Positions 1-61,694 of a stretch of DNA of 64,000 nucleotides are shown here, piece after piece (position 1 is the stretch's first letter; every line of letters begins with the position of its first letter). The translations under genes and the position numbers were made by a program. Source of the stretch: Tribonema minus. Taxonomy: Eukaryota > Sar > Xanthophyceae > Tribonematales > Tribonemataceae. The notes beneath the pieces were generated by a model, which did not search any database, was not told the origin of the DNA, and saw nothing but the letters and a program-made list of their open reading frames with translations. Location of the stretch: NCBI GenBank assembly GCA_017506865.1, contig JAFCMP010000054.1, forward strand, positions 62,001 through 126,000, read 5' to 3'.

Positions 1-1161
1 CATCTGCGCGTGCAATAACGATCATGATGGCACCGTCTGAGGCGTGGCAGACTTGATGGCAACAGACTTGTTCAACTTAGAGTTAAAAGACAGCCCCCGT
101 GATGTTGCTGAAACGTGAAAGCTCACAAGCTGCTGACCTGTTGTTGCACCAGCATGAGGTCAACATGCACATCGTGCCATCCTGAGTGAGATCTATGGGG
201 CTAGCGCAAATGGAATTACTTTCCAACATCTGTGCATTCATGTTTGGCATTGTGATGCTGGCCACCTCTGAACTCTAGCAGTGCTTGCGAGTGCTCATAG
301 GCATGCTGCCAAATTGAACTTGCCAGCCAATCCTTTTCAAACCGCGTGTTCATTGTGCGTTACATGCATCAGCCTCATGCACTCACCCAAAAGATGCTAC
401 AAAGGCACTGCATAATACATCTACTAGTAGAAGTATACTTCGAAGTATATATTGATAGCATGCTGCATCCGCTTAATGCTGAGCTACTGCGTCGGCGCCA
501 TGTGGAGGGGTAAGAAATGCAAAGCATGAGCCTTCGTAACCAACTGCTTCGCACACTGGTATTGTACACACAAGACTCGGTGCACCTTGGTACATTGTAC
601 TGTTCGAAATGGGCACATATCATGGTTCTGAGCATGGGCACAAACGCCTATCCGCTGGCAACAAATGTATGGCGTCTGATAATGTTGAGAAGTTTATAAT
701 TGTATGTAAACATTTCAGCACTACCAGTATACCTCGTGGTAAAATGTACACAAGCCGCCTACACCAGAGAGCCCTGCAATCCATGCCTGCATCTCGGGTC
801 ACCGTAATCCATAGTATAGGTGTATGCCAACTCAGGTCATATTATGGTGCACTCAACGATGCCATGCACAGCAGCTGCTTCCGCTGTTGAAGCCAATAAT
901 TTCGGCCGCCGTTGGTTGACCTCACTCCTGCCGGGCTATCATGATGGTACTCGCATCATTGAGATGCCGTCCGATGAGTCAGGACAAGCAAGAGCACCCT
1001 AAAGCGGTCAGCATCATGACTGGCTGCAGTTCTCGCACAGTGACAACATCTGTGATCCTGACGCTGGTGCTACGGGTCACTCCAGGCTGATGCGGGTCAG
1101 AATCAACCTAGAAAATCTCAAGTTGAATTTGGTATTGATATCACAATTATGGCATACGTAC
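1..1161. other. Unassigned sequence left of the last visible gene A exon
   Basis: No exon with convincing splice borders and matching phase was found here. Gene A leaves exon 1162-1338 in phase 2, so its next exon must lie in this stretch or, more likely, beyond the window. At 540-600 there is a weak match to the GTGCACC..GGTACATTGTAC part of the foldback repeat family found elsewhere. Confidence 0.4.
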
Positions 1162-1338
1162 TTGTCGCACTGTCCAGCACCCTCGCAGCAGCTGTACGTG
1201 CCGGCGTCGCACAGGGCGAACTCAAAGTTGCCCAGGCCAGTGGCTATGGCGCCTGTAGGCGCTGTTACGCACTCAATAGTGCCCTCGCCCACAGCTGCCG
1301 TGCCCTCGGCACACAGCTCGCATGTTGTCGCCCCATAC
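1162..1338 (-). CDS. Gene A exon, Cys-rich GCC2/GCC3-like repeat
   Basis: Acceptor ACACCTGCAG, donor GACAA|GTACGT; phase 2 in, phase 2 out. The peptide starts YGATTCELCAEGTAAVGEG and contains CDAGTYSCCEGAGQC. The paired Cys and the C-x-x-C/A-E-G-T pattern fit an ephrin-receptor-like repeat. Last gene A exon visible in the window. Confidence 0.8.
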
Positions 1339-16300: not shown

Positions 16301-19300
16301 GATAGCACGGGGTAGGCAATGATTACTGTATGCCTCAGAAGTCACGGTACAGCACTGTACTGTTGGCAGGCGCACTGGCAGCCATGTATGACTTTTCACC
16401 AGCCTGAGTGAGTGAGCCTGAGACGAACTTGATGCAGAGTTGCCTCTGTCAGCCTGATGCAATGCATCCAACTGCACCGCATGTGCTTGCTGACTCAGTC
16501 AGACTTGCCGCTGGACGCTTCAGCCGTTGCAAGCCAGACAGTGGTGGCAGCGGCTTCAAGTTGGTCTGCCACCACGGCGCGCAGTCTGATTTGCACCACG
16601 TCAAAGCACACGCCTTCAAGCTGGCGTGGGCTGCTGCGTGTCTGCTGAATATCACGACACCAACTTGAAAAGACAGGAAACCGTTGTGTCTCGCAGTACG
16701 AGCAATGCTGCAGGTTTCAGGGGATGCAGGTGACTGCCACTGACTCACCTCTGAGTCAGCGAAGTCACCATGCTTGATACAATTGGGCCATAACTGGCGA
16801 TCTTATCTGGCAGTTAGCAAGCGCTGAATGCCTCATATTTTGAGGTACATAGACATCTTGGAACCAGTTCGCCTCAGGCTGGACCTTTAAGCCTGAGGGC
16901 TCACCGTGCAGAAGCCGCTGATTCTGAATCAGAAGAAAACGTTTGAGGGCAAGGTCTGACTCTGAGGTCGCTGACGGTGGAAGCAGCATCGTGCTACTAG
17001 TAGACTTTGTCGTGCCGGGTCAGACATATTAGGTCACCGGTGCCACAGTGTATGGAAGCATACAATGCTGAGTGGCATGACACACACCTACAGTACTACT
17101 AGTAGGCTTCACGTTTATGCCACCTGCTGTTACTCTTCAAGTTGGCGTGCAACCTTGATTCATGTGAGGGTGTGCAACCCTGATGTTTGTGTTCGGGGGG
17201 AGGTGATCGATCCTGAATTGTTAGTAATACACTGTACGCAGCACGAGGCTTTGGCTTTGTTTCTGTAGAACACTCAAAAGCCTCCCCCCTCAGATGGAGT
17301 ACAGACGGTTTCTTGTGCAGAATAACAGCGGAATAACAGTCACTGTCACAGTGACAGTTGCCTAGAAAGCAGCTGCACCTGGTCTAGACTTGATCAACCT
17401 TTGGAGTTGATCGTCAGCAAGTCGGACTTCAAGTTTTGCTGCATCATATACGGACCAAATCAAATCCAAAAAAGGTGACTCATAGCACAGCACTGCCATG
17501 CGTTGAATGGACATAACATACATGGACTCCGGATATGCGTAGTACCCTGAGGCTGTCAGTCAATGATAAATCCATGATATAGTTTGCGCACCCTTGAAGT
17601 TGTATATTGTGCCCTGGACCTATGTCCTGGACCGCACCCGTGAAGTTCCAGTGGGTGCTGTCACCAGTCTGAGAACCGATCAGTCACTAGAAATGGCACT
17701 TTGAAAGGTCACCGTGCAAGTTGGGGCAGAAACAGCCTAGTAGCAGAACTAGTAGCTCAGTAAAAGACCCTGGGCCATGAGGTTGCTGTACCTGCTTGGT
17801 AATGCTTGCGAGGCTCTTCACCGGCCTCGAGACGCATTGGTAGTACAGGTAGTTGGAGTCTAACAGCACGTCATCCAGGTGACGCAGAAAGAAGCCGAAG
17901 GAACCGTCATTGACCTGCACTCACGTGGAACAGGCGACACCATGCCATTGGCACAAAATATAAATTAAATGCAGGAGACTGTCAGTGAGTGTCGTCCAGG
18001 AATCTTCGCCAGCATGGTCACCGTCACCACCACGGGGGTGGCCAGGCCAGAATCATCATGATGCTCAGGTAGTATTCCTAATAAAGCTTGCTGTGCACTG
18101 CATTGTCGGCTTTTGTGATGGCAGCCATGCCGACCCCAGTCTACTCTTAAAACTAGCTAGCACGGGGCGCTGCTGTGCACGCAGGTGATCAAGTCGTCGA
18201 TGCAACGCATCTCGGTACCTGTACGACATAAAAACTTTTCAAGTAGATGCGTTGGATCGATAACATCTCGGCGTATTCTGCACTCATTTATTTTCAACAA
18301 CTTGAAGTGCCGTAGCATAGGACATTGCATTATTGATAATCAGACTTTCAAATTAGCACCAGGTCTTCGTGTTTAGCTAGGGCTGCAGAATGGCAGCAGT
18401 GATCATGGCATTCAATGATGCTCTGTGTTTTTGGTATGAAAATTCATCACATGATACTTTTACCATATCAATGCCATACGAATTGAATGTACTACCAGCA
18501 CTGCCGCGGTGCGGCAGGACCTCAGGCAGGCTGGTGCTGGTTTACTATCATTCAATGTTGTATCACAGTGACTGCCCGTTCTGAGGCAATACTTTGAATT
18601 GTGAGGACTTGAGGACCCGGTGCTATTCAACAGCCTGAGCAGTGCAGCAGCCTGAGTTCCTGGACCTAGTAGGCTATTAGTAAGCACTATGGTAGCCTGA
18701 TATTTCACACTGTTACACTAGTGTGACAGTCACAGCAGCTCTGAGTCAGCCTCAGGCTGGCACTGCAGGCACCGGGCGGGCCTCAGGCTTGCCCTGGGCC
18801 ACACGAATAAATGGTAATCTGAATAATACATGTAAAGCCAATTGGTTCATAAACATACTATCTTTCATTGAAGATTTAGCCACAGAGCTTGAAGTTCTTC
18901 CACAGTGACTGCTGCCTGCCCTTAGGCTAGGGACTGCTTGAACCGCGCCGCCCTGCTCGTTGACAAGTCCTAATTAAAGCTTAAAGCTGGCACCTGGGGC
19001 ACACTAGAACTGAATCGATTTGAAAGCATGAGTAAGTCTTGCTTTGACTGTCACATGCGCACTGCAGCCTTCAGCCTTCAGGTTCAACAGTTAGTAAGTT
19101 AACTACTAACTTAAAGCCTGCTATCACCACACACGATGTCATTATGTCATCCCTGATGACATTGTGTGAGATGCTGAGGCCACTGGCGGCATTCAATTTG
19201 GCAACTCCCATGTACCCGTGGTTTGGGCCAAAAGCACATGGCATGAGTGTCACTCACCTCATCAAAAGTTGACACAGGTCCATCGATGGGCTTCTTTAGC

Positions 19301-22300
19301 TCCTCTATGATCTTCTTCTTCACAAACTTCTTTGCGGCGTCCTTGACAGCTGTTTGACACTTCTTCTTGACCTGTAAATAGCATAAGAAGTAAATGATTA
19401 TGGGGAACACACTCAGTCACTGTCATCAACATGTGCACTGCAGATTCAGCTGCACACAGCAGCGGCTGCTGCAACGGCAGCAACCTGAGGCTGGATCATC
19501 ATGATGATGATTGTCGAACAAACCATTGCAATTGGTATAGACTCCGAGTCGGACCTCAGGACCCTGTCAGACTGAGTTTTCCGAGCACTTGCTTAGCCTA
19601 GTAGTCCAGCGAGTCACTGACGGCGAAGTTCAACCTTCTGAAGTCTTGACAATAATCTTGTTCCTACTAGATCTGATTCATTTTCATAGGCACGACTATC
19701 ACACTATAATAAACAAATGATTGATTCCACATACATATTGATTCAGAAGCAATAGAACGTCATTGAGCAGTCTGAGATTTTAAAGCCTGTTTAGTCCTCA
19801 AGGGTTGAACTTCCGAAGTCGTTGCAGCTGTCACAGTGCCAGTGGGGTCCTGTTTTGGAATTTGTTGCGCCCAGCCGGGTTGAGCAGACTGTACTTACTA
19901 ATAGTCTACGTGACTCGGAGTGCCAGGTATTCAGTTCAATCAACTAAATAAGTTCAACTTGCCAGGTCCAGGTCCTCCGGGACCTTGGGACCTTTTTTTC
20001 GCAATCGAAAGCTCACCTTTCCATAGTTGGAATCTTTTGGAGGTGCTGTGTTCAAACGCTCCTTGTAGCTGTTTTGCTTGGGCGGAAGGGTAGCGTCTAC
20101 CAAAACACGCCCCCGAGTCAGAGCAGCATCTTGCTTGAGCAGGCGAACAAGCTGATGGTCCCGTCCGCGGGCCGTCTTATCTGATCCTGAGTCACTCAAG
20201 CTGCCACCACCGTGACGGAGACCTACCAGTGCACACCGGGTACAAATATCTTTGACACCTGGTCCAGCCTGAGGTATGGCATCATGTTGAATTTCGTCCA
20301 GACTGGCATACTGACAGTCACAGTCACTGTGACTCAGTTTGTCAGTGACACCGAGACAGTGGCGCTTTAATAATTTTAAAGCAGAGCTATAGTATAGCTA
20401 TCAATTTGTCAAGTAAAAACCAGATTGAATTCTGAATCAGAATTTGTGAAGCCCAGCCTGACAGTGTCACTCACTGACACTCTGGCACTGTCAGCCAGGC
20501 CGTGAGCGCGTGCCACAGTGAGGGCCTGCACTGCACTGGCAGGCACTCGCTGTTAGTCTGGCTGTCAACGATAGCCTACTAGTCTAAGACTAAATACTAC
20601 TGTACTTCAATAGTAGACTACTTTACGGCAGTACTTGGTAAGCGCAGTAGTTACAACGGCCGCAGCGTCGACGCTCTTCACTGCGGTGCAAGCGATCTAC
20701 GCCGCAACTGCCGTCACGGAGACGGGGACCACTGAGCCAGCCCCACACACCCACGGCATTGTGCCTGGCGCCGAGGCGGCCGCTGCGGCGGCGACCGTAC
20801 CTGGCCCTCAAGCCGCTGCCGCGGCTGCCTCTTCCACGCCCGCTAAAACACAAACTAGCGCGGAAGAAAGCAGCTGCAGCGGCGGGCAGGAGGACGACGA
20901 CGACGACTGGGAGGCCTATGCTGACGAGATCTGCAGAAAGGTAGTGCCCCGCCGCCGGCGCGGTCACTTCACGCACGGACTACAAGCCGGCCTTTCAAAT
21001 GTTCTTCGACGTCAATACGAGGACTGCCTGGTGGAGGACCTAGAGGCTGCCTCGGCTGGTGCCGTGGGCAAGCCGACGCAGGCTACACTTATTGGTGACT
21101 CGCGTGACACCAGCCGCCGCCGCCAACAGGCTAGCGCGCGGGTCCTGGCGCAGCTGCGCAGCCAGCGTGCGTCCGGGGCAATGGCGTGGATGAGCGTGCC
21201 ACCCGCTGCCAATGACCGCCCGGGTGCGGCGCCCATGTCCAGTATGGCAGCAGCCACGATGATTATGGTTGCGATCTTTATAGACGGGTGGGGCATACAG
21301 GGCGAGGTGTGCCCATGGCGGTGCAGTGACGTGAGCCCCACCTCCACGCATGCGATCAGCTGCCCCAGCCAGCACATACGGGGGCACAACGCGACACACA
21401 CTGCCCAAAAGCGGTGCCTACAGCGCATCTTGAGACAGCACCATGTCTCTATTGTCCGCAATGAGGACGCTAGCGTCTTCAAGGTACCGGGGTATCGGGC
21501 GGACACAGTCATTGACCCAGGGTGTCTGCACTTTAGCAGTGCATACCGTAACAAGGGAATAGTGCTAGACACAAGTGTGCGCGCGCCCACAGCGAGCTCG
21601 TACCTGACAGGCAAAACAAATGCCTCGAACACGGACGGCTATGCTGCTGGGGTGGGGGAGGACGCGAAGGTCAAGCACCACACCGGCACCTTGACGTCAT
21701 CTTGGGCTTTTGTGCCATTCGTGCAGGAGTCGTACGGACGGCTGGGCAAGCAGACAAGCCTTTTTGTTAAGGAGTTGGCAATGCACTCAGCACTGTGCTC
21801 AGGGGGGGGGAAGGCAGATGTGTTACGCAAGGCCGGGTTAGCTAAGAGTCAGATCCACATTGAGCTGAGCATATCGCTGGCGCGGGAGTTGGCGGAGCGC
21901 GTCATGGCATACACACGTGGAGCGCGAATGCTGGGCTGTGTTGCGGCGCCGGTATCCAAACTCCTAGGGCACAGCGCAGACTAGGCTGCTGCGTTGACGC
22001 AAGCTTTTCGATTGCATAGGCAACCCGGCCTCCCTTGGGCCTTTATAAATACAAGTCCATACGCGCAGTAGTTGTGGACTTGTACTACAGTTACTGTTAC
22101 TTCTAGGTAATCAAGGCCCAAGGGAGGCCGGGCCGGGTTGCCTATGCAATCGAAAATTTTGCGTCAACGCACCTGCCAGCAGCCTAAGTCTGCACTGCGC
22201 CCTAGGAGCTTGGATACCAGCGCTGCTGCAGTCATCATGGTCATGCCATTGGTCCAAGTTGACAATAGTATCATGTTGTTGAATGGAACCCGAATCGGAC

Positions 22301-24864
22301 TTCGGATGCAGGACGGTCACTGTGACAGCAAAATCAATGTTCAAGACTTAAGACTGCGAACTACATAGTAATAGTGACTATGCAATGTTCACACTGGCAG
22401 CTGTTTACCAGTTATTAAGTTATACTTTGGTGAAAACGAATAAAAAGATCGTAGAGCTCCTAGACTAGCCTAAGGTCACGGCGACAAGGGATGGTTAGCC
22501 GCAAGTGCCTTAAAGTTCCACCAATACTATTAGTAATACCGTAGTGACTTAAGTAATTTCAGGACGTCACTGTTGATGCAAAGTGAATTCATTTGGATGC
22601 GACACTTGTCAGTGAACTTCGTTGAGCGCTCCAAAACAAAGGACTCATGCACCGGTACTACTAGTAAGTGAATTGACGTGTTCAGCAAGACTTGTTGCAC
22701 TGTGTTGGTATCATAATATATGTATACCGCCGCAGGTGTTGACGTTTAAATTGCTGAGCACCAGCTTGAAGTCTTTTCACACTTGCTGATCACATGCAAT
22801 CTGTCTGTAAGCCTTCAAGTTGCAGCCTGTCAGTGAGTGTGCATTCGATTTGTATGCATTTGCATTTGAGCTAACCGGCTGCGGAAATACTCACTCCGAG
22901 TCACGGTGTACTGTGGTCGACAAGGTATTGCGCTATCTTGGAGGCAAGAAGCAGCAGCCTGAGGGTAAGGATCAGGAACACTCGAGGAGGTGACCGTCAT
23001 GCTGATAGGCAGCACTGTACATGTTACGGACTCCCGGTTGGGCTTCATTGCAGAGCAAAAGTAGAATCTGATGTTACCGCCCCGGTCACGGTGCCGCCAC
23101 AGTGACTGCAGTGCGCTCAGTGCACTGCAGTGCGGCACTGCTTCCGCTGAGTAGTGCACTCAGTGGCACTGCACTGCAGTGCTAGCATAGTATGCCTCTA
23201 GGCTGCCTCTGGCATGGCTGTATCATGAAACATTGTCAAGCAGCACTGCGGCCCGGCACCAGTCTGAGGTAAACTGGCAGCTCATTGAGCTGCTCAAGCA
23301 TGCACTGCTGCTGCGGCAGTGCAATGCAGCAGAATCTGATCTCACTGACAGACTGGCTGGCTGGTGGGTTCTGATGTGACTGGCTGGTGGGTTTGAAATG
23401 CGACCGAGTATTACCGTATTATCTATAATTAGGCCCATGGGGCGAGTTTTTCATGAGAGCGAAAAAAGGGGGTCACGGTGGGGCGCCATTAGTATATGGA
23501 GAAAAAAATGGTGGGGTGCATGATTTTGAGCCATTTTAGCTCATTTATCACCATGATGATCACAAGGTGCCAGCATGCTTCTACGCCGCTCCTGAATCCG
23601 GTTCAACTTTCAAAAGGCAGCTGCTGCTTCTGGGAGCCTTTTTGTGAGGTTGGCTATATTCAAGTTAAGTTGTTGCCAGTGGCTGTCGTTATGCCTGCTC
23701 TGCACGCTGCTGACAGACTGAGTGCACATTCATGCGCACACACAATGTGGTCATGTGGCATGAGTCACTGAGTGTGCAGAGTACACGTACGCAGATACAT
23801 GCTGCATAAGCATGTGAGTAAAATGGGGGGGGGGGCACATTTTATGAGCGAACAATAAGCCTTAGGGTGGGGCGTCATTTTGTGAGGGCTCGGAAACTAA
23901 AAAAAATCTCGCCCCATGGACTTATAATTATAATTATAGACAATACCGTACCATCTCATGCATCTGATTCAGTGTAATATCGGGCACACATACTTACAGT
24001 ACATAGTAGCATGGACAGTACTGTTTGTAGCTTATGCAGAACGTACTACGTGTATACTATAGTGCGGCACCATTGGCAGGCGTTCTGTCAGACTGTGAAG
24101 AGTCTGCTGCAGGGCACTGGTCCAGGAGTGACTGTACTTTTTATTAATTCTCGCTCAGGGCGCGAAAAAGCCCAGATGATTGGCACCTAGCTGTAAGGAA
24201 TCTACATGTCGTATGACAGTCTGAAAGTGTCGCAACGACAACCACTCGAACGCCACCGCCGCCAAATGGCATCTCGGGGTCCTCCCCTACGTCCTCCTCC
24301 ATGTGCCCCCCCCCCCCTGTACTACTTGGTAACACTAAGTCTTGCGTTCTCTCAACTGGGTAAACTGAACACTTCATCTGTCAACACTACTTAAATCATA
24401 GCACTAGTACCTGTAGTCAACCAGTGGTCGCTGTATCAGTTATCATGAGTCAATGAAGGATTGAATAAAATACAATCATTGACAAGTGGCAGACTTCATT
24501 TTTTAACACAACAGCTTTTTGAACATCAGCACTCAGTCTGCCAGGATTAACCGGAGGTATGGGCCTGAACTCCAGACTGACTACTGATCATGTTAGCTTC
24601 GCTCGCAGGCCCATACTAGTAAGGCTTTGCCTACAAGTATTATACGTGATGATACCACACGTTGTACAATCACTGTGGCTCAATAATGTCATACACCTCA
24701 GTTCAGCTGGATCTACGAAACTTCAAGAAATTCGGCAAGTGTAGTCGTGTAGTCTACCGTAGTAGTGTAGTGCTTTTGTCTATTGCCTGACCTGACAGTG
24801 CGCTCGCCGTAGGCATCCACGCTGCCAGCACAAACCAGGTCGCCCCCCAGCGCAACACCATCAT
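1162..24864 (-). CDS. Gene A: large secreted multi-exon protein ending in Cys-rich GCC2/GCC3-like repeats (3' end outside window)
   Basis: Minus-strand gene read by hand through at least 15 exons (each listed separately) with matching phases. Exon 1 encodes a signal peptide, so the product is secreted or wall/membrane exposed. The central exons (20258 to 3114) match no family I recognise; they contain amphipathic Leu/Asp-rich stretches. The exons at 1643-2059 and 1162-1338 carry spaced CPPG-, CxxC- and TGxxxC-type motifs typical of GCC2/GCC3 (ephrin-receptor-like) repeats, common in huge extracellular proteins of green algae. About 880 residues are visible. The link between exon 1 and the exon at 22895 is not resolved (phase 1 out, phase 2 in, so at least one exon is missing). 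Introns host a LINE copy, a hAT-like element, a mariner-like element and a 339-bp tandem duplication. It is transcribed divergently from gene B. A surface/extracellular-matrix role is inference. Confidence 0.7.
1643..2059 (-). CDS. Gene A exon, Cys-rich repeats (CPPGTYGD, CPPGSFAPQTG)
   Basis: Acceptor CCCCCCCCAG|G, donor AACAA|GTGAGT; phase 2 in and out, 139 residues. Contains CPPGTYGDAA, a 50-residue segment with CTPADVGHYAND, then CPPGSFAPQTGMPFCYKARP and a TDTDCPTGG end: tandem GCC2/GCC3-type repeats. Joins exon 3114-3370 through an ACG (Thr) codon split 2+1. Confidence 0.85.
3114..3370 (-). CDS. Gene A exon, Leu/Asp-rich segment
   Basis: Acceptor CATCCCTGCAG, donor TGCAC|GTAAGC; phase 0 in, phase 2 out. 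The peptide begins DMLNYIFPLADIKAF and has a series of PxLxL and DLDLPNLDF-like steps, suggesting a regular short repeat of alternating Leu and Asp. No family recognised. Confidence 0.85.
4308..5037. mobile_element. hAT-like non-autonomous element, 730 bp, 8-bp target duplication
   Basis: Terminal inverted repeat TAGGGTTGGCA at 4308 and its complement ending at 5037, flanked by the direct repeat AGTGGAGT at 4300-4307 and 5038-5045. Subterminal regions on both sides are rich in TATACGCGTATA-type words. No transposase ORF. An 8-bp duplication and a TAGGG..GCA end are typical of the hAT superfamily. It lies in the gene A intron between exons 5943-6093 and 3114-3370. Confidence 0.85.
5943..6093 (-). 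CDS. Gene A exon
   Basis: Acceptor TTCATGCAG|C, donor CTGCAG|GTGAGT; phase 2 in, phase 0 out. Begins IGPWHIDLGYSVRDILDYIG and ends with DPLIAPIVSFLQ; a fairly hydrophobic helix-forming segment. Confidence 0.85.
6661..6708. repeat. Single arm of the TGTGCGCCCAGGTG foldback family
   Basis: Reads TGTGTGCCCAGGTGTCGTTG then ATACAACGCATCTCGGTAC, the same order of words as one arm of the complete foldback elements at 44126-44221 and 49652-49715. The matching second arm was not seen nearby, so this is a half element. Confidence 0.5.
8062..8162 (-). CDS. Gene A exon
   Basis: Acceptor GTGCCTCTCAG, donor TTCAG|GTGAGC; phase 0 in, phase 2 out. Encodes SFLDVFSDVWSAIEEALNWQ then IRFEIGAWDLGLF. Junctions with both neighbouring exons keep frame. 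Confidence 0.85.
9602..9690. repeat. Fragment of the TA-target mariner-like MITE family
   Basis: GCCCATGGGGCGA followed by a purine-rich stretch, GGGTGGGGCGCC and ATGGGTGGGGTG matches in order the left part of the complete elements at 23419-23943 and (inverted) 48114-48612. Ends are not recognisable, so this is a degraded piece. Confidence 0.5.
9878..10800 (-). pseudogene. Copy 2 of LINE 3' ORF (zinc finger plus restriction-like endonuclease), frameshifted
   Basis: The reverse complement matches 21142-22063 almost base for base over about 922 bp. Same coding features: AMAWMSVPP segment, a C-x3-C..H-x4-C zinc finger, and the endonuclease-like GYRADTVIDPG..VLDTSVRAP. It has one extra base in the G-run (GGGGGAGGGG against nine G), which shifts the frame after HSALCSGGG and ends the ORF early. 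Beyond 10800 the sequence departs from copy 1. Sits in the gene A intron between 8162 and 11386, opposite in direction to copy 1. Confidence 0.8.
11386..11543 (-). CDS. Gene A exon with GC donor
   Basis: Acceptor GCTTCCGCAG, donor GTGCAG|GCGAGT (GC-AG intron); phase 1 in, phase 0 out. Peptide starts LAERISNTTSEVTAVLGGNC; several Asn-X-Thr/Ser sites (NTT, NVT, NDT) fit an extracellular glycosylated domain. Confidence 0.85.
12269..12559 (-). CDS. Gene A exon
   Basis: Acceptor GGTGAAAG preceded by CCCCCTTGCTCTCGCC, donor CCAACG|GTGGGT; phase 1 in, phase 1 out, 97 residues. Starts VDFNRPLAVTLDQDPLSYYT and ends with CESGVLCNAN. The split Val codon joins exon 13203 in frame. Confidence 0.85.
13203..13356 (-). 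CDS. Gene A exon with two possible acceptors
   Basis: Donor GAGCG|GTGAGT, phase 1 out. The acceptor can be CCAACAG at 13357 (phase 0, joining exon 15684-15884 directly) or GTGGTGAG at 13349 (phase 2, joining the mini-exon at 13487). Both give an open frame running into VDVAVQTLNNVTSRAQEVF. The start of the exon lies inside the 339-bp duplication, so the acceptor is also present a second time. Confidence 0.8.
13487..13521 (-). CDS. Gene A candidate mini-exon, copy 1
   Basis: Acceptor AGAATTGCTGCAG, donor GACTTCAG|GTGAGA, 35 bp, phase 0 in and 2 out: DILDGNDYGDF. A longer form with acceptor ATGAAGCAG would start at 13551 and add IKAISQELLQ in the same frame. Length not divisible by three, so it can be used only with the alternative acceptor of the next exon. 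Confidence 0.5.
13826..13860 (-). CDS. Gene A candidate mini-exon, copy 2
   Basis: Duplicate of 13487-13521 shifted by 339 bp, with the same acceptor but donor GACTTCAG|GTGGGA instead of GTGAGA. Splicing both copies together would shift the frame into a stop, so they could only be used one at a time. Confidence 0.4.
14698..14780 (+). repeat. Possible diverged A-repeat of the TOC1/PAT-like element
   Basis: The words AATTTTGGCA, AAAAACCAGGAA and GGGGGGAGGCGA occur in the order seen in the A repeats at 29214-29403 and 32587-32783. Divergence is high and the ends are unclear. From about 14793 to 14995 follow two imperfect copies of a unit running from GTCTCAGC(C/T)TGAGGC to GGCTTGCA(G/A)CCCAGGC. 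Confidence 0.35.
15684..15884 (-). CDS. Gene A exon
   Basis: Acceptor CGCACGCAG, donor GGCAAG|GTGCAC; phase 0 in and out, 67 residues. Starts VRKYTCGFTKGAGGVYRAAQ; Lys-rich and ends EQKEDTGK. Confidence 0.85.
17792..17914 (-). CDS. Gene A exon
   Basis: Acceptor GTGAGTGCAG, donor AAGCAG|GTACAG; phase 0 in and out, 41 residues beginning VNDGSFGFFLRHLDDVLLDS. Most gene A exons begin with GT after CAG (Val in the phase-0 exons), a regular border style. Confidence 0.85.
18178..18232. repeat. Half foldback repeat (CGCAGGTGATCAAG..GGTACCTGTACGACA)
   Basis: Contains GATGCAACGCATCTCGGTAC and CTGTACGACA, the inner words of the foldback family, without the full TGTGCGCCCAGGTG end or a second arm. Confidence 0.4.
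19258..19371 (-). CDS. Gene A exon, Lys-rich
   Basis: Acceptor CTATTTACAG, donor GATGAG|GTGAGT; phase 0 in and out, 38 residues. Starts VKKKCQTAVKDAAKKFVKKK, a strongly basic amphipathic helix. Confidence 0.85.
20017..20258 (-). CDS. Gene A exon
   Basis: Donor GGAAAG|GTGAGC, phase 0 out. The acceptor is taken as CTGGACCAG at 20259 (phase 1 in); GCACTGGTAG at 20223 is an alternative in the same frame. Peptide begins VKDICTRCALVGLRHGGG and ends KDSNYGK. There is no in-frame ATG, so it is internal. Confidence 0.7.
20617..22063 (+). mobile_element. Copy 1 of a 5'-truncated LINE 3' region with zinc finger and restriction-like endonuclease
   Basis: The open frame runs from a TAG at 20614 to the stop ending at 21984, with no ATG before about 21181, so it is a 5'-truncated ORF. 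Order: Ala-rich linker, acidic DDDDD, basic segment, AQLRSQRASGAMAWMSVPP (like the region after LINE reverse transcriptases), a C-x3-C..H-x4-C finger (CPWRC..HAISC), then GYRADTVIDPG and GIVLDTSVRAP, which fit the PD-D motif of the R2/CRE-type restriction-like endonuclease, and FVPFVQESYGRLGK. No reverse transcriptase domain is present. Strong match to 9878-10800 (inverted) and decayed match at 28322-29119. It lies in the intron between gene A exons 20017 and 22895. Confidence 0.7.
22107..22240 (-). repeat. Inverted fragment of the LINE 3' end next to copy 1
   Basis: Contains GGCCCAAGGGAGGCCGGG, TTGCCTATGCAATCGAAAA and CTAGGAGCTTGGATACC, i.e. the last ~110 bases of copy 1 in reverse, only ~45 bp after copy 1 ends. 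The pair forms a tail-to-tail inverted repeat. It has its own short insertions (a CCGGG duplication; CCTGCCA). Confidence 0.75.
22895..23067 (-). CDS. Gene A exon (5' border uncertain)
   Basis: Donor CTCGGA|GTGAGT, phase 1 out, which matches the phase of exon 20017-20258. Encodes MKPNRESVTCTVLPISMTVT and then SSVPDPYPQAAASC..CRPQYTVTR. The acceptor is probably GTAACATCAG at 23068 (phase 2) or a CTGCAG further upstream; the internal ATG at 23048 is not taken as start because a signal peptide exon lies upstream. Confidence 0.55.
23419..23943. mobile_element. Mariner-like MITE, 525 bp, TA target duplication
   Basis: Ends TTATCTATAATTA and TAATTATAGACAA with TA on both sides. Inner ends carry CCATGGGGCGAG facing inwards on both sides. 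The same element, inverted, is at 48114-48612. No ORF. TA duplication and AT-rich TIRs fit a Tc1/mariner-type non-autonomous element. Confidence 0.75.
24135..24290 (+). repeat. Dispersed repeat starting TACTTTTTATTAATTCTCGC
   Basis: Contains TCGCTCAGGGCGCGAA, GCCCAGATGA, GACAGTCTGAAAGTGTC and CAACGACAACCACTC. Matches 41975-42112 (reverse strand, nearly full) and 54568-54622 (reverse strand, only the first ~55 bp). Confidence 0.7.
24792..24864 (-). CDS. Gene A first coding exon: signal peptide
   Basis: ATG ATG start at 24864; encodes MMVLRWGATWFVLAAWMPTA then SALS, with a donor TGTCAG|GTCAGG, phase 1 out. A basic residue, a hydrophobic core and an Ala-Ser-Ala end make a classical secretion signal. 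Same layout as gene B exon 1: an MM start and a phase-1 intron right at the predicted cleavage site. Confidence 0.7.
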
Positions 24865-28200: not shown

Positions 28201-31200
28201 TGGTACTTACTAGTACTACCCTACACATCAGCGAGTCAGTGTGGCGGTGCAGGCTGAGCATTTCATGTGATCAGACCTAAACAATTGATGAAGCTGTTAC
28301 AGTACTACTGTACCAGTTACTGGCCATGGCGTGGATTACCGTGCCGCCAATTGCCAATGTTTGCCCCGGTGCGGCGCCCAATGTCCAGCATGGCAGCAGC
28401 CACGATGATCTTGGTTGCAATATTTATAGACGGGTGGGGCATACTATGTAGTACAGGGCGAGGTGTGCCTATGGTGGTGCAGCCACCTCCGTGCACGCAC
28501 AGCTGGCCCAGCCAGCACACTGTGGCATACGGGGGCACAACGCGACGCACACGCCCAAAAACGGTGCAGCGCATCTTGAGACAGCACCATTTCTCTGTCG
28601 TCCGCAATGACTCAGAGGACGCAAGCGTCTTCAAGGTACCAGGGTATCTGGCGGACACAGTCATCGACCCACTTGCACGGTGTCTGCACTTTTAACAGCG
28701 CATACCACAACAAGGGAATAGTGCTAGTAGACAGAAGTGTGCGTGCACCCACGGCAAGCTCGTACTTGACAGGCACAATGACACGTTAAATGCCTCGAAC
28801 ACCGTGACGGATGGATATGCTGCTGGGGTGGGGGAGGGCGCAAAGGTCAAACACCACTGTGACACCGACACCTGGATGTCATCTTTGGCCCCGGGGCCTT
28901 TGTGCCATTCGTGCAGGTCCTGGAGTCATACGGACGGCTGGGCAAGCAGTCGGACAGGATTGTCAAGGAATCGGCAATGCAGTGCACTTGGCACTGTGCT
29001 CAGGCGGGGGTTAGGCAGATGTGCTGCGCTAGGCCGGGCTTGCTAAGCGCGCGCGTCAGATCCTTATTCAATCTGAGCTGAGTATGTCGTTGGCGGGGTT
29101 GTTGGCAGAGCGCATCATCATATTATAATGATACACTATGTAACGTTTTACTAGTCATTACTTTAAGTTATTTATTATAGTACTTCATTTACTTCCGCTT
29201 GAGGGGCAGAAACTCAGAGTTTTCGGCAATTTCGGAAAAAGTTGGGGCCAAAAACCAGGAACCAGCAAGGGGCACAGAAAGGGGGAGGCGAGCGTGGCAG
29301 CCATTCACATTCTGCTAGGCCGCACAAGGCCAAGCTCTCGTAGATATGGCAACACCAGCCAGGTAGCCAGCACTGTTGCCTATCTGCTCAACTTAATCAA
29401 AATGGAACGAGCGACGCGAGCGGCGAGAGCTGCAGCGAGGGGCCCAGCAGGTGTCAGGGGCCGTGGAGGAGGAGCTGGCAGAGCTCGAGGAGCTGCCAGG
29501 GCTGGCAGAGATAGAGGCGCTGCGGCTGGTAGAGGTCGAGGCGCAGCTGCTGCTGCTGCGAATGCCGCACCACCCGCAGTTGCCAACGCCATGGCAGTTG
29601 TTGCGCTGGCAGCTGCACAAATCGACGCGAAGCCTGAGCCTAATCTGCTAGCTGAGGAAGTTGTAGCAGCTGCCACCTTCGCGCGGAACGTGGAGCAGGG
29701 GTGTGGGGTATCCATCGGTGCGCTTCGGATGATACTGGAGCGGCAGGAGCAGCAGGAGAGGCAGCCAGCGCAACCTGCGGCCAACGCGTTCATCACCCCT
29801 CCTCGTCGTCCACAGGGCACCGTTCGCATGCATCCAGCCACGGCGCCCACGCAAAGCTTCTGGCAGCTGCTGCAGGGCGGGAACGTGGTGCTGCCGCCCA
29901 TCTGCGGCGACACGTCCATCTTCTACGGCTCTCTAATTTATTGAGGGATTTATTTTTATTGAGGGGATTTCCTATACAGGTGCATGACACCTCTTGCCCC
30001 GGCACAGCAGCGCGCTCTCCACAACTGGCAGTATGGCAGCAGGTGCTTCGGCACCGACGGCCTACGCCTCAACCACCTGCAGCTTTCGGCGTCGCAAAGA
30101 GACACTGCCGCGCCCCTGCCTGCCACCTCGGCAGCGCAGCACGGCCATCCACCAGCGGCGCAGTGGAGTGTGACGGATTCGGCTGCCCCGCTGCTGCTGA
30201 GCGACGCCCTGACCATTCTCAACGAAATCTTCATCGGCATGCGCGATCTGGTGCACGGCGGAGCACAGGCGCCAGGAGCTGCGGGGCCGTACGCGCTTGT
30301 GGACCTCACGGCCACGCCACGCTGCCTGTTTCTTGACGCAGCCACCGCGCCCTTAAAGCCGCTGCTGGCGGTGGGCCAGGCGCAGCGGTTCGCCACAGGA
30401 TGCGCGCTAGACCCTCGCGGTGCGGAGGGCAGCTCGGCGCAGTACATCATCCAGTCCGCCGTCGACGACGTGCACGGCGTGCTGGAGCGGTTCCACAGCG
30501 CCGTGATGGCGTGGGCACACCGCCATTTCCCCAACACCGCGGTGCCATGGGCACTTCCCCCGAGCGTCATACTTGACTTCGGCCCGACGTCGCTGCGCTT
30601 CGAGCAGCTCGTGCGCAACGCGGAGGTGCTGAAGAACCAGGCAGTCGCCATGGTAGCTTCAGCCACCGCCGCCAAGCGCCTGGCCGCTCACAACCGCCCG
30701 GGCACTGACGACCGCAATGTGCGGTCTCGCCTCATGGCACCCGCCGCCGACGGCGGCGGCGGGGACGGAGGCGGTAGCGGCTGGGGCGGCAGCGGCTATG
30801 GGATCACCCGCAACGACCTGCGGGCACGTGGTGCGTGCATCAACCACTATGCCGAGAGGCCATGCCTCAGCGACACCTGCCCCTACTAGTAGTACATTCA
30901 CATCAAGCCCGGAATGGCGCTTCCCCCGCTGCGGCGCCCGCGCGCCTTCGCGAGCGGGGGGGACTTGGGAGTGTCGGAGTCTGCGGTAGCGGCCAGCGAG
31001 GAGTGACCACCGCGACAGCGCCGGGCCAAGCAACCTAGGTCAGCCTGCACCGTACCGCTTAGCCCCCCCCCCCACACACACACACAACATAAATCAGATT
31101 TCAATTTGGTTTTTCACATACCGGTTCTGCACTCCGCTGTTTATTGCCTCTCCGCTGCGCTATGTCGCACTATCCAGTACACTGTAGTACATGCACTTGA

Positions 31201-34200
31201 AGTCTGAGCAGCGGCTTTGTACTGCTGGCATTTAGCAGTCGGCACCCACCGCCCCATGCTCCGCCTATGTCTTTTCTTATCCACTGACCAGACTCAACTT
31301 CGAGTGCTGCAGCAACTTGATCACATTGTCACTACCTCAGTCGCACCATGCCTCAACATGCAGGCAGTGACTCAGGCTGGATTTGCAATACCCGTGCATG
31401 ACATCTCTGCAGCGGCTTTGTATTGCACCATGCTGACCTTAGGCCACTGGCAATCAGCAGTCAATACCGACTGCACCATGCTCCGCCTACGTCTACTCTT
31501 ATTCACTGATCGGTCTCAAGTAAGACTTGATCACAATGTCTTGTCAATGACCTCAGTCTTACCGTGCCTCCATGCAGGCAGTGACTAGATCCTTCGCACT
31601 GTTCTCAGTCGCACCATGCCTCCATGCAGGCAGTGACTGGATCTTTAGTGCTGACCTCAGTCGCACCATGCCTCCATGCAGGCAGTGACTGGAGATCTTT
31701 ACTAGTACTTGCGCATCAGACCTGAGCAGCGGCTTTGTACTGCACCATGTCGACCTTTGGCCCACTGGCAATCAGCAGTTAGTACTGCCCACACCATTAT
31801 CCGCTTATATCTACTCTTGTCCTGCATCACTGACCAGACTCACGTGTGAGTGCAACTTGGTCACAGTGTCATGATCTCAGTTGCATCATGCCTCAACAAT
31901 GCAGGCCTGCAATACCCGCGCATGACATCTCTGCAGCGGCTCTGTATTGCACCATCATGCTGACCTTGGGCACGCTGGCGATCAGTGGTTCATAACCACC
32001 GCACCGTGCCCCGCTCACTTCCAAGTTTTCTCTGCCTGGGCTCAACTTCAAGTTCAACTTGGTCACTTGAGTTTGATGTTTCTTGCACCATGCACTTTCC
32101 TACTGTGGCAGCTGATGATTGCCATCAGTGCACAATTCTCCCTGCCTGTACCGGGCATTGCATTCCGTGCGGGCCATGTGGTGACTACATGTCCTTCTGT
32201 GCGCTCGTGCGGTTGCAGTGCCATGTGCGACGCAGGCACGGGGACATCGCGGCCGCCGTTCTACGTCTTGCTGGGCACCACAACACGGACCTGCCCCCCC
32301 CCCCCCCCCTCCTTGCCCTCGGGTCGGCTCAGAGGCTCTGGATACTTTTGTGGGGGTTCCTTCTTCTTCACCCCCTTTTTGGGGCTCGCTTCTTCCTCAC
32401 CTCCTCTGGAGGCTCGTTCTTTTCTGTGGGGCGTTTTGTGCAGCAACCCTGGGCCAGTGCGGGTTGCGCCAGGCGTTCCCTGGGGGATGGTTTGTTCACC
32501 CCCACAACGCACGCACACTCTCAAGCTTCTGCTTCTCTGCACCACCTTGCTCGCATCCTGCCGACCAGTCTGAACCCTTGCTAGTTTCAGAGTTTTCGGC
32601 AATTTTGGAAAAAACTGGGGCCAAAAACCAGGAACCAGCAAGGGGCACAGAAAGGGGGAGGCGAGCGTGGCAGCCAATTCACATTCTGCTAGGCCGCACC
32701 AGGCCAAGCTCTCGTAGATACGGCAACACCAGCCAGGTACTACTGGCCAGCACTGTCGCCTATCTGCTCAACTTAATCAAAATCCTCCCACCCACCCGGG
32801 CGTTTTGTGCAGCAACCCAGTGCGGGTTGCGCCAGGCGTTCCCTGTGGGGATGGTTTGTTTACCCCCACAACGCACACACACTCTAAAGCTTCTGCTTCT
32901 CTGCACCACCTTGCTCGCATCCTGCCGACCAGTCTGAACCCTTGCTAGTTCCTATGAAAATCAATATGCAACTCGTGTACACATGTGCTGTGTCAAGCAT
33001 GTATTACTAACACATGCGCTCTATACGCTATGAAACGATCACTGACCGTTTAACTAAGTCTAGTAGGTTTTACGTACCACTTCTGCATCAGATGCGTTAC
33101 GCAGCGTCAACGCCCCAATGGGCAAGGCTAAGCTCACCTTTGTCACGTCTTGCTGATGTCATCTGCTGCCAGGTCAACGGCAAATGCATAGACGGCAAGT
33201 CTGAGACCGTGAGTAGCGCCGAGAAGGGCCGGCTGCAGTTTGAGGCGCAAACGCAAAGCTCCGGTGGTGACTGGGCTACCATCGGCAAGGGTGCCACCCG
33301 TACCTTGCAGGTGCCATGGAACCAGGGCCTGCAGAAGCAGATGGACAATGGGAAGGTCAGTGTATGACTTACAAATTGTCTAAAACTATTATAATTATAG
33401 CATATGGCACAATGTCATGCCATTGGCATGTATGCCTTCTAGAGCTTGAGCTTCAGACATGCAATTCAAGTGCCACAGTGACTCTCGGAGTCAGTCTCGC
33501 CCACTGTGACTGGACCACTGATACCAGTTGCTGTACTACTAGTAACCACTAGTAGTTCACTGATGGCAGGCATCTCAGACTCAGTCTGGCAAAAGTTTGC
33601 CATCATGATGAAAAAATGCGGCAATCATCGCCGCTCTGAGACATGTGATCAATGGCACCTTCAAGCTGCAGCATGACATGACATTATTTTAACTTGTTGA
33701 CGTGAATGCTATGTCCGGAGTCCCTGTCACATTCAATTTTCAAATTGGACCTTATACTATATACATCAGTAACTTAATGACTGCTCATTCCTGAGGCCAC
33801 CCTTGAGAGTATATGCCATTGTGTATGCGACCCAAAGCATACAACTTGAACTTGAAAGTCTGACATGGAGCGTGCCCTGGCTGTTGCTGTGACGCTATAG
33901 CAATATAACATTCAGTCGCGAACTTTGAAAGCACTTTAGAAACTGAGTCTGCTGCTGTCACTTTGACAATGTAATACGAGGTACTCTAGCGCCTGTTACC
34001 GCCAGATTATTATGACATTTGCCACTAGCAGTTGCCAATTGCTCCACTGTGGAACGCAGCAGCTGTGTCACTGGAGTCTAAGACTTGTCGCAAGCACACT
34101 GTCAGACTGCAGTCGCACTCATGAGTGTAACACGAGGAGTCCAGCGCCTCAGGCTGTCACTGCGAATCATCATGGGATTGCCAGCGACTGCTGGGATTGC

Positions 34201-37200
34201 CAGCGACTGCTGTCAGCTGAACTAGTTGCTCCAGGACCTGTTGTGCGCCCAGGTGGTCAATGCAACGCATTTCGACCTGTACGACAATGTCAGGTGGTCA
34301 ATGCACGACAATGTCAGGTGGTCAATGCAACGCATTTCGACCTGTACGACAAGGTGGTCTATGCAACGCATTTCGACCTGTACGAGCTGTCGTACAGGTC
34401 GTACAGGTCGTACAGGTCATACAGGTCGAAATGCGTTGCATTGACCACCTGACATTGTCGTACAGGTCTGTACGACCTGTCGTACAGGTCGTACAGGTCG
34501 AAATGCGTTGCATTGACCACCTGACATTGTCGTACAGCCTGAGGTCGAAATGCGTTGCATTGACCACCTGACATTGTCGTACAGGTCGAAATGCGTTGCA
34601 TTGACCACCTGGGCGCACACTGTCGCGAGCGCTGTCTGCAGCCATTGGCACTTCATTGTGACTTGGAAGCATGCAGACTGAGTGAGGCTCAGCATAGACT
34701 CTCGGAGAAAGATTCGTATTTTTCTACATCTGATTCATATATTTCTTGACTCACCTACCGCCATGTCGCTATTTAGGCCAGCGGGTCCCCTAATTAAAAC
34801 AGGCATTTGTATAACTCGGACAAGCTAATTGAATCAAGCGTTTGTATCCCCAGGCTTAAATCAAGAGGGCCTCAATAAGACACCTTTGAACCCCACACAA
34901 CAGGCCCACGCGGATGCTGTTTTCTGGCACCGCGGCGGTTTTCGTTCGAGTTGTTGTTGAGCTTTCGCGTGAAAAAAAAGACAGAAGTCCCGCGCACGCG
35001 CACGAAGCTGAGGCAGGCTCAGAGGGCCGCAGAGGTTGGCTGGCAGTGCTGCCTCACAGATATCTTCAAAGGCGCCCTCTGCCACTCGTGCAGTGCGATA
35101 ACAGCAGCTTACAGCTCAGCGTGTGCATGCAGCTACTGTACATGCCTCACCTGGTTACCAGCAGCCGAAGTCTGGGGTCGGCTTAAGTTGAATCCAGCAA
35201 ATGTATTACCCAGGCTTAAATAGGTTTGGGGCCAAGTATTGTCTTCATTACGTGCCCCGCCGGCTTAAATAGCGACATGGCGGTATCAATATATCACATT
35301 GATTACTGTAACACCCACTGGCAGTGGACTGCGTCTGATTCACCACAATCGCGAGAAGTCCATTTGCAAGGTTCACATTTGTGCGGTCTTAGTTTTGAAT
35401 TCAGGTCCCGGTTCAAAGTTTTTGCAATACAAACCTACAGTTCCAGGCGAGTCTTAGAGCCATCGGCAATTACCTTACCATAACGGTAGCTGTCAGTGAT
35501 GCCAAGCTAAACTTTCCGTTTTCCCCCCCCTGGCAGCCTGATGGCCTGCAGTCATTATTTCCCCTGCGACTCACTGATCTCATCTTGCATGCCATTTTGT
35601 GCGCTGCTGCTTTTTTGCTGCTGGCGCGACACCGCACCATCTACTGATGGGATGCTCAGTACCATGCTGTGCTGCGGCGCCTGAATTCCGTCTTCAGGTC
35701 AGTTGCACGGTGACCGTCATCGTGTGACACACCATTTGACTAGGATGACATTGTCATGAATGCGCACATAATGACATTTTAAGGTGTATGCTGTGAGAAA
35801 GCATTCAAGTTGAGCCACAACAGACAGGCGCCACCACAGTGCATACTTCAACTGATTCACTGTACACTTATGTTGACGTTACTAACCGGCACAGGTCCGC
35901 ATGCTTAAGCAATTGCCTTGGGAACAAGAAACAACACTGTGACAGTCACTGTGCTGAACTTCGGAATGGGGGCTATCCACTGTCACAGTGTTCGATTTCA
36001 GAACATCGACTGTACCAGTGGAGCAGGCCCTCAGGCTGAGGTGCTTTAGTCCATAAATGCAGCTTGAGGTCACACATGCCATGTTATTCTGAAATCCAGG
36101 TGCACCCGGGCCATCTCAACTTTGCAGTGACACAGTATTTGCGCCGTCATTACCGTTGCCAATGACACCTGCACAAGAGTTGTATACACTACAAAGCTTC
36201 CTCTATGTTTTAGCTGTAATTAAAAAAAAATCATAACGTTCGCGGCAAGACCTTCAAGTCACTGTTGGCAAGCCGGGAAATGCAGCTCGACTGCACAGCT
36301 ACTAGCAGTACTGCAGCACCAGCTGGACTCAGTAACAGTGACTAAGAGGGGGCAAATTAGTCAATTGAGCTCAATGAGATTCACTTTGCCTTAACAATTG
36401 TGTGTGTCACTTACTCAGCTGACAATCCGAGTCGCCCGCGCAACTTCTCGCGCTCCACTCCCGCCGGGGGGCCCTAGACACCGGCGGCCCTCTATTGCTC
36501 CAACATGATGCCCTCGGATGATCGCTGTGGTATGCAATTCTTGTTGTCACACAGTGACAGCTGTTGCAGGTTGCTTATGCTCACCATGCTGTCAGAGTTC
36601 CGGTAATAGAAGTACTCAATGCTGCAAATACTGCAAGCAACTCACGCGTAGCGCTTGACGTGGAGGCGCAGGTGCATGCCTTCGATCTTCTCGTACTGTT
36701 AGTAGCTGCCGCCGCTCGCATTTGTGCCGCCGCCGCCGTAGCTCAGCAGCACGTTCATCTCGCCGATGCAGAGGTGTTTGAAAGCGACGGTCGGACACCG
36801 TTCACTCGCTGTCAATGTCCTTGCGAGCGCCGCTGCCGTTGCCCATCTGCGGGCGGAGCGGCGGCGGCGGCAGCGGCGGCGATCAGCAAATTGAATGTAT
36901 ATCACGACCAACACGTGCCACTTGGTGTCCAACGCTCTTTCCGCTGCAGGGCAATGGCCGACCAAAACATAGATGTTAACATCGACGAGAAGGACCAGAC
37001 CTTCCAGGACACTATGGCAAAGGCCCATGCCAAAGTGGGGGACGTGATCAGGAACTTGAAGCTTCCCAGTGGCATCAACATCGTGACCCCTCCTCTTGGC
37101 TATACCCACAAGTCCCCTGCTGGCAATCTGAGCAAGGGTTATGCGTACCTTAGCCACACGCCAACTCAGATGCCAGAGGTACAAACATACTAAGTCGTGC

Positions 37201-41823: not shown

Positions 41824-44800
41824 CTGCGAGCATGACGCGATTTCCGGGACAGGCAGTGCTCAGCACATGAGCGCATGCGTGGACTTGCAGCGCTGTGTCA
41901 TGGCCTGAACAGAGGCTGATGCTACAGTGCGCAAGTGGTAGTAGCATGAGGCCTCCACAAAATACCCAAGGGCGGCGGCGGCGTTTGAGTGGTTGTCGTT
42001 GAGACACTTTCAGACTGTCACACGACATATAGATTCCAGACAGCAAGCTTCAAGTTAGATGCCATTCATCTGGGCTTTTTTCGCGCCCTGAGCGAGAATT
42101 AATAAAAAGTACCCAAGGGGTAGAGCTTGAAGTTCCAACGTGTTGAGAGCGTATGCCAAATGAGCAACACATGCAGCTGCAGTTGAGAGCGAGGTCACAG
42201 ATGAAGCTACTTGGGTTGCACGCAAGAAACAGTGCAACTCACTGCAGTGGGGCAGCAATCCCATCAGTGACGTCCCGTTGGCACATAGCACTGCACACAT
42301 TGATGTTCCATAGCAGCACGTATACCTGCTAGCAACTGGGCCTTGCCGGGACTTTCACCAGCCTACATAGAAGTATATAATGCATGACCATGCGCCGAGA
42401 GTTGCAATTGCTTGTGTGGCATGTGCAAGTGCGTCAAAGGAGCTGTGTGCCAACACCTATAGCTATGACGAAGGTCATACCATGTACTGCTCACTGAGGA
42501 AGAGTTAACGCACTTTTGCACTTTTTTAGAGGTCATACTGCTTACTCAGGAAATTCAACACTTTCATTGCTACGACATTGAGGAACATTGTGATGCAGCG
42601 CTGTCACTACACAAGTACATGCACTTACATAAAGACCACACAAAGACGTGCATGAGTACATACCCAGGCATAAACCATGTTGTCCCAGCTGACAGTGTCA
42701 AGGTCAGATCCCAACGAACCACTGGAAGCGTCAGCGTCGCGCTGCAGCCACAGCACCACCTCTGGCACCATTACCTTGTAAACTGCAAGGCACAGAGACA
42801 ACGCAAATGATCACAAAGCTGCGTCAGATCAACGCTACCATGACCGCAATGTTTACATGCGGAAGTACATCATCTTGTGTGCTCAGCAGAAGAAGAGACA
42901 GGTGTGCTGCATAGCACGGTCTCTGACACCATGCACGTTGGCCGCATTCAAAGCATCGGCTGAATGGGTCAATCGAGGTGCAGCGCAAGCGCACCAACAA
43001 GCACCGCTCAAGCATAGGGACGCGTTTAAATAGAAGCAGATTTTGCAAGTTTAAGATGATGGCTCTCAGGCTGCCAGAGCTGACGCTCTTAAAGGCATAT
43101 GTGCGAGAGGCACAGACAATGGTAATTGTTGCAAGCCCGGTGGGCACGTCGATTTGCCATGACACAGCGCTGCATCAAGGAGCATGGTTGACACGCAGAT
43201 GGTGCTTGCGCGAACTACAACTGGCCTTTGTCTAGGAATTCCCTTTCACCGCATCGTGCTCAACCTGTTTAAACGTGCCTTCCCGTCCCTGCGCAGCTTT
43301 GGCTTGCGTGCAATACAATCAGCCTCCATGATTGCTTGCCAATACTCAGATGTTGACACCAGCTCGTCCCCTGGGTATGCATACAGAAAGTTATACAAGT
43401 ATGAAGCTCACCGGAGTACAGGCCGCCCAAACCCATGCCGCTGAGCAGTGCCACAACAAATACACCCCAGTTTGGCAGGTTCAGCTGCTCAAATCCCAGG
43501 CCGAACACTGCCGCGCCCAGTGCTGCCAGGCACAGCGATGCTCGCAGCACGCGGACTGGCTTCAGCACGTTGAGCGCAGCGGCCATGGCAACTTGGACAA
43601 TCGCGGTGCCCACCTGCATTGCGCCAGTGTATAGCAGGGCAAGTGAAATTTTAAGACCAGCGGCATGTTAAATTTAGGGTGACCTTTTGTGTGCACAATT
43701 GATGCCGTTTTTTCCATCACATGAACGCAATTCATTTTCCGCTGAAGCATTAATAATTAGCCGGAAAGAAACACGAGATCGAAGGTGCTTCACAAGTATC
43801 ATTATTATGCCACGCTGTGTGAGAATTGATTGCGTGTGCATGCGTAAATACGGCAGCTGTAGGCTGCTGAAGGGGAGGCCACGGCTGTGTGGAAGCACTT
43901 GGTCGGCCTGAGGCTCGTGCTTGCACTGCAGGCAGCACAGTGCATGATGGTTGCAGCACGCATGTGCAGACCAGCTACAGCTGCAGCTGCAGCAGCGTAT
44001 TGGGCACAGTGCACATTGACCGCGTGAACGAATGCACTGCCGATCAACAGTGTAATCAGTGCAGAAGCAGTCCTCTGCGTCAGCATGAGAGGGTGTGGCA
44101 ATATCATAGGTGAATGTCTTGTGGATGTGCGCCCAGGTGTTGTCGATACAATGCACCTTGGTACTGTCGTACTGTTGTACAAGTACCGAGGTGCATTGTA
44201 TGAACAACACTGGGGCGCACATGGAGTCAACTCTGACTCTAACGCAAATACGACCCTAGTTCTGACACAACTGTTTGGTGTTTGGTATATGCAACATGAT
44301 CAGGGCAAGCCCCATGTGGTGCAGAAAGTGTTGCACACCTACGGCACTTCCGGCACGGAAAGTGTCATCTCATAGTATACCCATGCACGCATGGCAGACC
44401 CACAAGGTTTGAGAGGTGCACACACATGTGGTGCGTGCAATCCCACATAGTGAGCGCGTGTCTTAGCACAGCGGCCATGGCCCTGCTCAGGCTGCTGATA
44501 GCAGATGACACGCGCACACATTTGGGCGCCGAAGATTGTGTCAAACCAGTGCCGGCAGTGCACTAAGTCCAATACAACTGACGAAAAACGGTATGCTCAC
44601 ACCAGATACGGCCCCTCCACACACAATCGCACACTGCAAACTACTCAGATTGCATCATAGTTTAAAATGCCCATGTTCATGCGTGTGCGTGCCATGGCCA
44701 AGGCTGAAGTTGACCACGCAAGTGATGGCAGCATTAGCAAACCCTGACCCTGTCTTCCCTGATCTGATCCAACTGCGGACCTTAACCTTAGCCCCAGCCC

Positions 44801-61661: not shown

Positions 61662-61694
<33 letters not shown>

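Follow-up and report, generated by a model that had tools for sequence, protein, structure and literature searches.

A decayed repeat copy at 28322-29119 (+ strand) in the Tribonema minus DNA analysed here, a single stretch of 64,000 nucleotides (the 64-kb window), is interrupted by numerous short insertions, and the question raised by this locus is what kind of event produced them. The initial annotation described the insertions as recurrent, often of 6 bp, and as non-random, with the neighbouring bases copied in inverted order about a single central base, and it was right on both counts. Alignment with the intact copy of the repeat at 21177-21905 revealed 15 insertions of at least 3 bp, of which seven measure 6 bp and the remaining eight differ from that length. 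From this alignment and those of two more repeat pairs within the window a rule for the 6-bp insertions was derived that is tighter than "palindrome", and which was later tested on other data. A target ABCD becomes ABC·D'C'B'A'·BCD (the prime denoting the complement), a net gain of 6 bp, so that in the scar the reverse complement of the target is flanked on both sides by a copy of the target's inner two bases. Four of the seven 6-bp insertions fit perfectly, all aligned on the + strand: TGACTCAGAG at 28608-28617 (target TGAG, giving TGA·CTCA·GAG), CACCGTGACG at 28800-28809 (target CACG), CACTGTGACA at 28855-28864 (target CACA) and AGGTCCTGGA at 28915-28924 (target AGGA). Another, TCAATC, misses one of the six constraints, while CACTTG and GCGCGC are off-rule, with two and four misses, respectively, as are the eight insertions of other lengths as they stand. 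The scar at 28608 is matched within three mismatches at two genomic places, i.e., one other besides the window. A Pfam search with the 449-aa ORF of the repeat, a putative LINE, gave no match. Palindromic insertions of 8 and 10 bp were also seen near 28445, 28521 and 28888, and in a copy at another locus, L030 (CTAGA-C-TCTAG), and these do not follow the 4-base rule.

The reverse reading, in which the intact copy has suffered deletions, is ruled out by the sister copies. Among 39 other matches to the repeat (40 of 1005 candidates having been scored), 36 have the uninserted length of 720-729 bases, and the three longer ones are L030, L029 and L031, at 739, 741 and 758 bases. Likewise, forty matches that cover nearly the whole intact repeat, one of them the window copy itself, are of uninserted length (40 of 1156 candidates were scored). 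When nine repeat copies were aligned, 6-bp insertions were present only in L031 (4.4% mismatches), which carries five, three of them perfect; the other eight copies have none. The L031 insertions are private, except for one scar that is identical to one in the decayed copy; a further insert differs from its nearest counterpart there but is only a few bases away from it. Across five repeat pairs there are 19 six-bp indels, of which ten are perfect and 13, these ten included, violate no more than one of the six constraints; random inserts placed at the identical sites would be expected to give 0.02 and 0.43, respectively. The other six are off-rule, as are most insertions of lengths other than 6 bp. 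Since the rule was derived from three of these pairs, independent support comes from L031 (3/5 perfect) and from a MITE pair (2/4). Within the window, a perfect scar at 32447-32456 (+, target CCCA) is missing from a 94%-identical copy at 32798-32950, and the insertion CTACTG at 32740-32745 (+, target GTAG, one constraint missed) is missing from a 93%-identical copy at 29214-29403. Two further perfect scars, at 23552-23561 (+, target CATC) and 23857-23866 (+, target AAGG), occur in only this one of 40 aligned MITE copies. That alignment contains nine 6-base insertion runs, two of them at the alignment margin, and its four perfect scars comprise the two in the window copy and one each in L065 and L068. 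The scars are true insertions.

A search of the whole window for 10-mers that fit the rule perfectly gave 276, of which 270 lie outside tandem arrays. The number falls to 19.7 (s.d. 4.6) after dinucleotide shuffling and to 21.0 after shuffling within 500-bp blocks, and Markov models of order 2, 3, 4 and 5 predict 18.5, 21.8, 39.1 and 44.4, respectively. The pattern is even stronger than first described, in that one exact rule accounts for 276 sites where about 20 are expected. When the same rule was applied with 5, 6, 7 or 8 bases there were 4, 1, 1 and 0 matches in the window, and the 3-base version is raised 1.6-fold. In a scan of inversion and overlap geometries, which reports only those with at least 15 matches, the 4-nt inverted copy with a 2-nt overlap dominates (276 vs 21). 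Other geometries of the same insertion length are raised up to about 5-fold, a good part of which is expected as a shadow of the dominant geometry. Three 9-bp geometries whose direct overlap spans 7 bases are rare but steeply raised (15-18 vs 0.4-0.7) and resemble direct repeats. Inversion lengths other than four, and many other overlap and offset geometries, gave no signal comparable in number. The window is also enriched in direct 4-bp duplications (460 vs 288) and in 4-bp hairpin products that lack a loop (9 vs 1.2). The commonest one-mismatch departures have a tip base that is uncomplemented (90 and 81, with about 17-19 expected), and adding the excess of one-mismatch remnants (about 526) to 257 perfect scars gives a rough estimate of some 780 scars in the 64 kb.

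Aligned with one another, the window scars display a weak, dyad-symmetric motif, RC[CTAG]GY, which is centred on the four target bases and includes positions that the rule leaves free. A purine occurs at -2 in 381 of 552 half-sites, as against 373 of 752 for matches in shuffled sequence; C is found at -1 in 42% and as the first target base in 38%, with G correspondingly last, and the shuffled-sequence matches have none of this preference. Outside the window the motif is weaker: the half-sites with a purine at -2 number 79 of 134 in the sampled loci L021, L025 and L027, and 93 of 154 in the other 17 loci of contig C112. The symmetry of the target about its 4-bp core points to a dimeric enzyme making a 4-base staggered cut, and the dominant geometry and the motif together fit such an enzyme acting with a 4-bp stagger and hairpin intermediates.

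The scars are regional and patchy in their distribution. Judged by 10-mer positions, most of the 276 are found between 14000 and 56000, and perfect 10-mers are absent from gaps such as 45309-48523 and 57482-61744; these scar-free stretches adjoin the scar-rich part and may be genes under selection or young DNA. The comparison set, twenty 10-kb samples of contig C112 (200 kb in total), held 145 perfect 10-mers with 69.9 expected. The idea that the excess extends beyond one repeat copy holds for the whole window (276 vs about 20) and for L021 (22 vs 3.4) and L025 (30 vs 4.4), which are clearly raised, and weakly for L027 (16 vs 9.2) and L018 (7 vs 3.2), but not for L010, which is at background (9 vs 8.8, Markov-3), or for the other C112 loci. 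With L010, L021, L025 and L027 set aside (L018 being kept), the remaining 16 loci have 68 matches, compared to 68 under Markov-3 and 55 in dinucleotide shuffles. An 8-nt version of the rule has no match in the window or in the 200 kb of C112. The 38 MITE copies from elsewhere (19.2 kb, mean 5.7% mismatches) contain eight perfect 10-mers, with about six expected by chance at the window shuffle rate, and six of the 38 have diverged further than the copy in the window that has 8.9% mismatches. The two copies in the window, each some 0.5 kb long, have three and one. Elsewhere among the samples, L011 has tandem arrays at 1-3822 and 8069-9607, the copies in the first being spaced by about 400 bp.

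These features are probably best explained if the insertions are footprints left on excision by a cut-and-paste DNA transposon with a 4-bp target duplication. The element would once have been present at each site, having inserted with duplication of the 4-bp target ABCD. At excision, the transposase would nick both flanks at a point one base into the duplication. The 3' end of each flank would then join the opposite strand to form a hairpin, the tip base being D' in the left hairpin and A' in the right one. The hairpins would then be opened past the tip, either by two bases each, followed by blunt joining, or by four bases each, followed by annealing of the complementary tails. Joining of the left flank, ABC·D'C'B'A', to the right flank, D'C'B'A'·BCD, would yield ABC·D'C'B'A'·BCD, with the net gain of 6 bp. 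Footprints of Ac/Ds studied in Candida contain palindromes whose centre is the complement of the base adjoining the transposon, a consequence of hairpin formation by the flank ends, and by that account the same is seen in plants and budding yeast; the footprints described there are heterogeneous, with 28 kinds among 128 clones (PMC5873905). Hairpin excision of an element with a 4-bp duplication predicts a palindrome centred on the complement of the element-adjoining base, as found in the scars. Counting against the excision reading, no element was found at a site that is scarred in a sister copy. Also against it are the heterogeneity of Ac/Ds footprints when set beside the nearly uniform scars, the weaker motif outside the window, the off-rule insertions, and the raised numbers of direct 4-bp duplications and loop-free hairpin products.

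A one-base rule of this kind could also be read by eye beside two of three hAT copies examined in this genome, the third having a plain 8-bp duplication. At L077:4428-4450 a hAT copy is still in place and its right duplication reads GTCA-A-TGACGAT, with one extra T that the rule leaves unexplained, and at L078:4439-4460 another copy in place has the right duplication CA-G-TGGTGAG. In both, the bases are inverted around the complement of the first base, as would be seen if a cut at one end had been followed by hairpin formation and rejoining.

Scans for inverted repeats with 4-bp duplications found one miniature family, here called TGTGCG after its ends (TGTGCGCCCAGG), and no other convincing element; inverted pairs outnumbered control pairs above a target score of 1 (245 vs 64), but largely reflect a GCAGCAG repeat, judging by the listed starts. 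In the window the family is represented by a member at 34242-34619, a palindromic element with the TIR TGTGCGCCCAGGTGGTCAATG and a 4-bp duplication, CTGT; by a 64-bp copy at 49652-49715 (duplication CTGC); and by an older copy at 44126-44221 (duplication TGGA, by eye from both flanks). Relics are found at 18174-18228 (+), 53967-54072 (+), 54766-54871 and 55333-55381 (-), and a probable relic end at 6662-6700 (+). Genome-wide, 327 ends match the 29-base TIR within three mismatches, with no mismatches at every place among the matches listed, and 775 ends match its first 14 bases exactly. Perfect 4-bp duplications flank 14 of 17 short copies sampled elsewhere in the genome, and an empty paralogous site confirms one of these duplications (L094 vs L010). 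A transposase was sought between distant TIRs and none was found: L099 has an ORF of 450 aa and L101 one of 488 aa, which were assigned to no family, and two ORFs from TIR-bounded intervals (L101 and L097) matched no Pfam family at the cut-off (one hit at E 0.086, 13.2 bits vs 29). One interval of 5.56 kb between inverted TGTGCG ends, from L100:74 to L099:2313 (G000:C35:1516553-1522113), has a CAGG duplication and holds Copia-like ORFs (by eye) in addition to the 450-aa ORF, with related pieces in L097, L098 and L101. Some miniature copies in L080-L096 contain internal repeats of their own ends together with pieces of the target duplication (L090, L092), and look as if gap repair had slipped.

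It is possible, although on balance we doubt it, that this family is itself the source of the scars, copies at RC[..]GY sites excising readily and leaving scars while others stay, which would be a special case of the excision reading. The duplication length is right, the edge base agrees with the scars (G at 282 of 775 ends), and the family clusters in the scar-rich window, with about eight copies and relics in 64 kb compared to a single likely relic (L009) in 200 kb of C112; its many exact copies are accompanied by old relics in the same window. At the outer flank, however, the family's preference is the reverse of the one seen in the scars, with a purine at -2 in 286 of 775 ends (nested internal ends included) compared to 381 of 552 scar half-sites. 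The 17 sampled sites score like random sequence on the scar matrix (mean -0.85, with -0.80 for the window and +0.79 for scars), and no relic was found in the scar-rich loci L021 and L025. The family is therefore a candidate and not the proven source, since its outer flank preference runs against that of the scars. Either excision depends on the flanks, or the scars come from a different family that shares this duplication length; we favour the second, as an unseen family with the same chemistry accounts more simply for the mismatch at -2.

An unlikely alternative is that a host enzyme with a 4-base stagger, such as a topoisomerase II-like protein or a domesticated transposase, makes regional hairpin-ended breaks with no element moving. 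It would suit scars that are much denser than any visible element, the near uniformity of the product, and a process so regional that the 38 MITE copies from elsewhere are near chance (8 vs about 6) while the window copies carry three and one. Against this, joining by hairpins offset by one base is transposase chemistry. A more specific proposal, that a host-controlled or domesticated hairpin-forming transposase breaks particular patches of the genome at RC[CTAG]GY sites with a 4-base stagger and one fixed way of resealing, would make 6-bp inverted insertions a major, region-specific class of germline mutation that arises with no element moving, and this we consider improbable. The initial annotation had suggested snap-back synthesis or template switching, whereby four neighbouring bases would be copied in inverted order during replication or break repair. 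This does yield an inverted local copy, and some related geometries are indeed raised, but a single 4-nt geometry dominates, the target is dyad-symmetric, and a one-base centre cannot form a stable loop; the suggestion is not supported and is the weaker reading, to which we give little credence. Chance, low complexity or alignment artefact is refuted for the window: even though some control geometries are raised 2-5 fold (three rare ones more) and most C112 samples are at background, the excess survives dinucleotide, block and Markov controls and the masking of tandem arrays, and the insertions were verified against sister copies.

If the scars are left by excision, then the region is a countable archive of past transposition, with (roughly) one recognisable scar per 80 bp, and one that can be read from a single genome by one 10-base rule. 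Excision of transposons could then become a leading source of short insertions in certain parts of a genome, 6-bp indels that are awkward to align would be explained, and the existence of a hairpin-excising element with a 4-bp duplication would be indicated, a combination of which we know no example. No published report of such a scar rule was found in the literature searched.

Several known systems resemble the scars in part. Inverted copies from opened hairpins are familiar as the P-nucleotides of V(D)J joining, whereas the scars have one unpaired tip base and are dispersed in the genome. Short template-switch (quasi-palindrome) mutations, a known mutation class, also insert an inverted local copy, but with variable copy length and offset, while the scars have a fixed length and offset and a symmetric target motif. 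Ginger DNA transposons are described as having TGTNR termini, targets of CCGG/CCGT or RTATAY, and a transposase with a Gypsy-like integrase. The candidate TGTGCG family shares with that description the TG...CA ends, inverted repeats and 4-bp duplications; it differs in ending with TGTGC and in its targets, which are not those given for Ginger, and no integrase-like gene is tied to it. The footprints of hAT elements (Ac/Ds, Hermes) contain P-nucleotides and, like the scars, form palindromes about the complement of the base that adjoined the element, here a putative one. The hAT target duplication is 8 bp, whereas the scars imply 4 bp, and they further differ in being nearly a single product, in their very high density, and in their target motif, RC[CTAG]GY, compared to the nTnnnnAn preference given for Hermes (PMC10368747). 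Matches to the hAT domain are present in this genome (131 among 150 of 162 candidates scored), and none is linked to scars; an 8-bp-duplicating hAT family was rejected as their source, having the wrong duplication length and target. The event is probably of a known kind, the footprint of a transposon that excises through hairpins, and what is unusual is the length of the duplication, the near uniformity of the product, and a density high enough for it to rank as a major class of mutation in parts of the genome.
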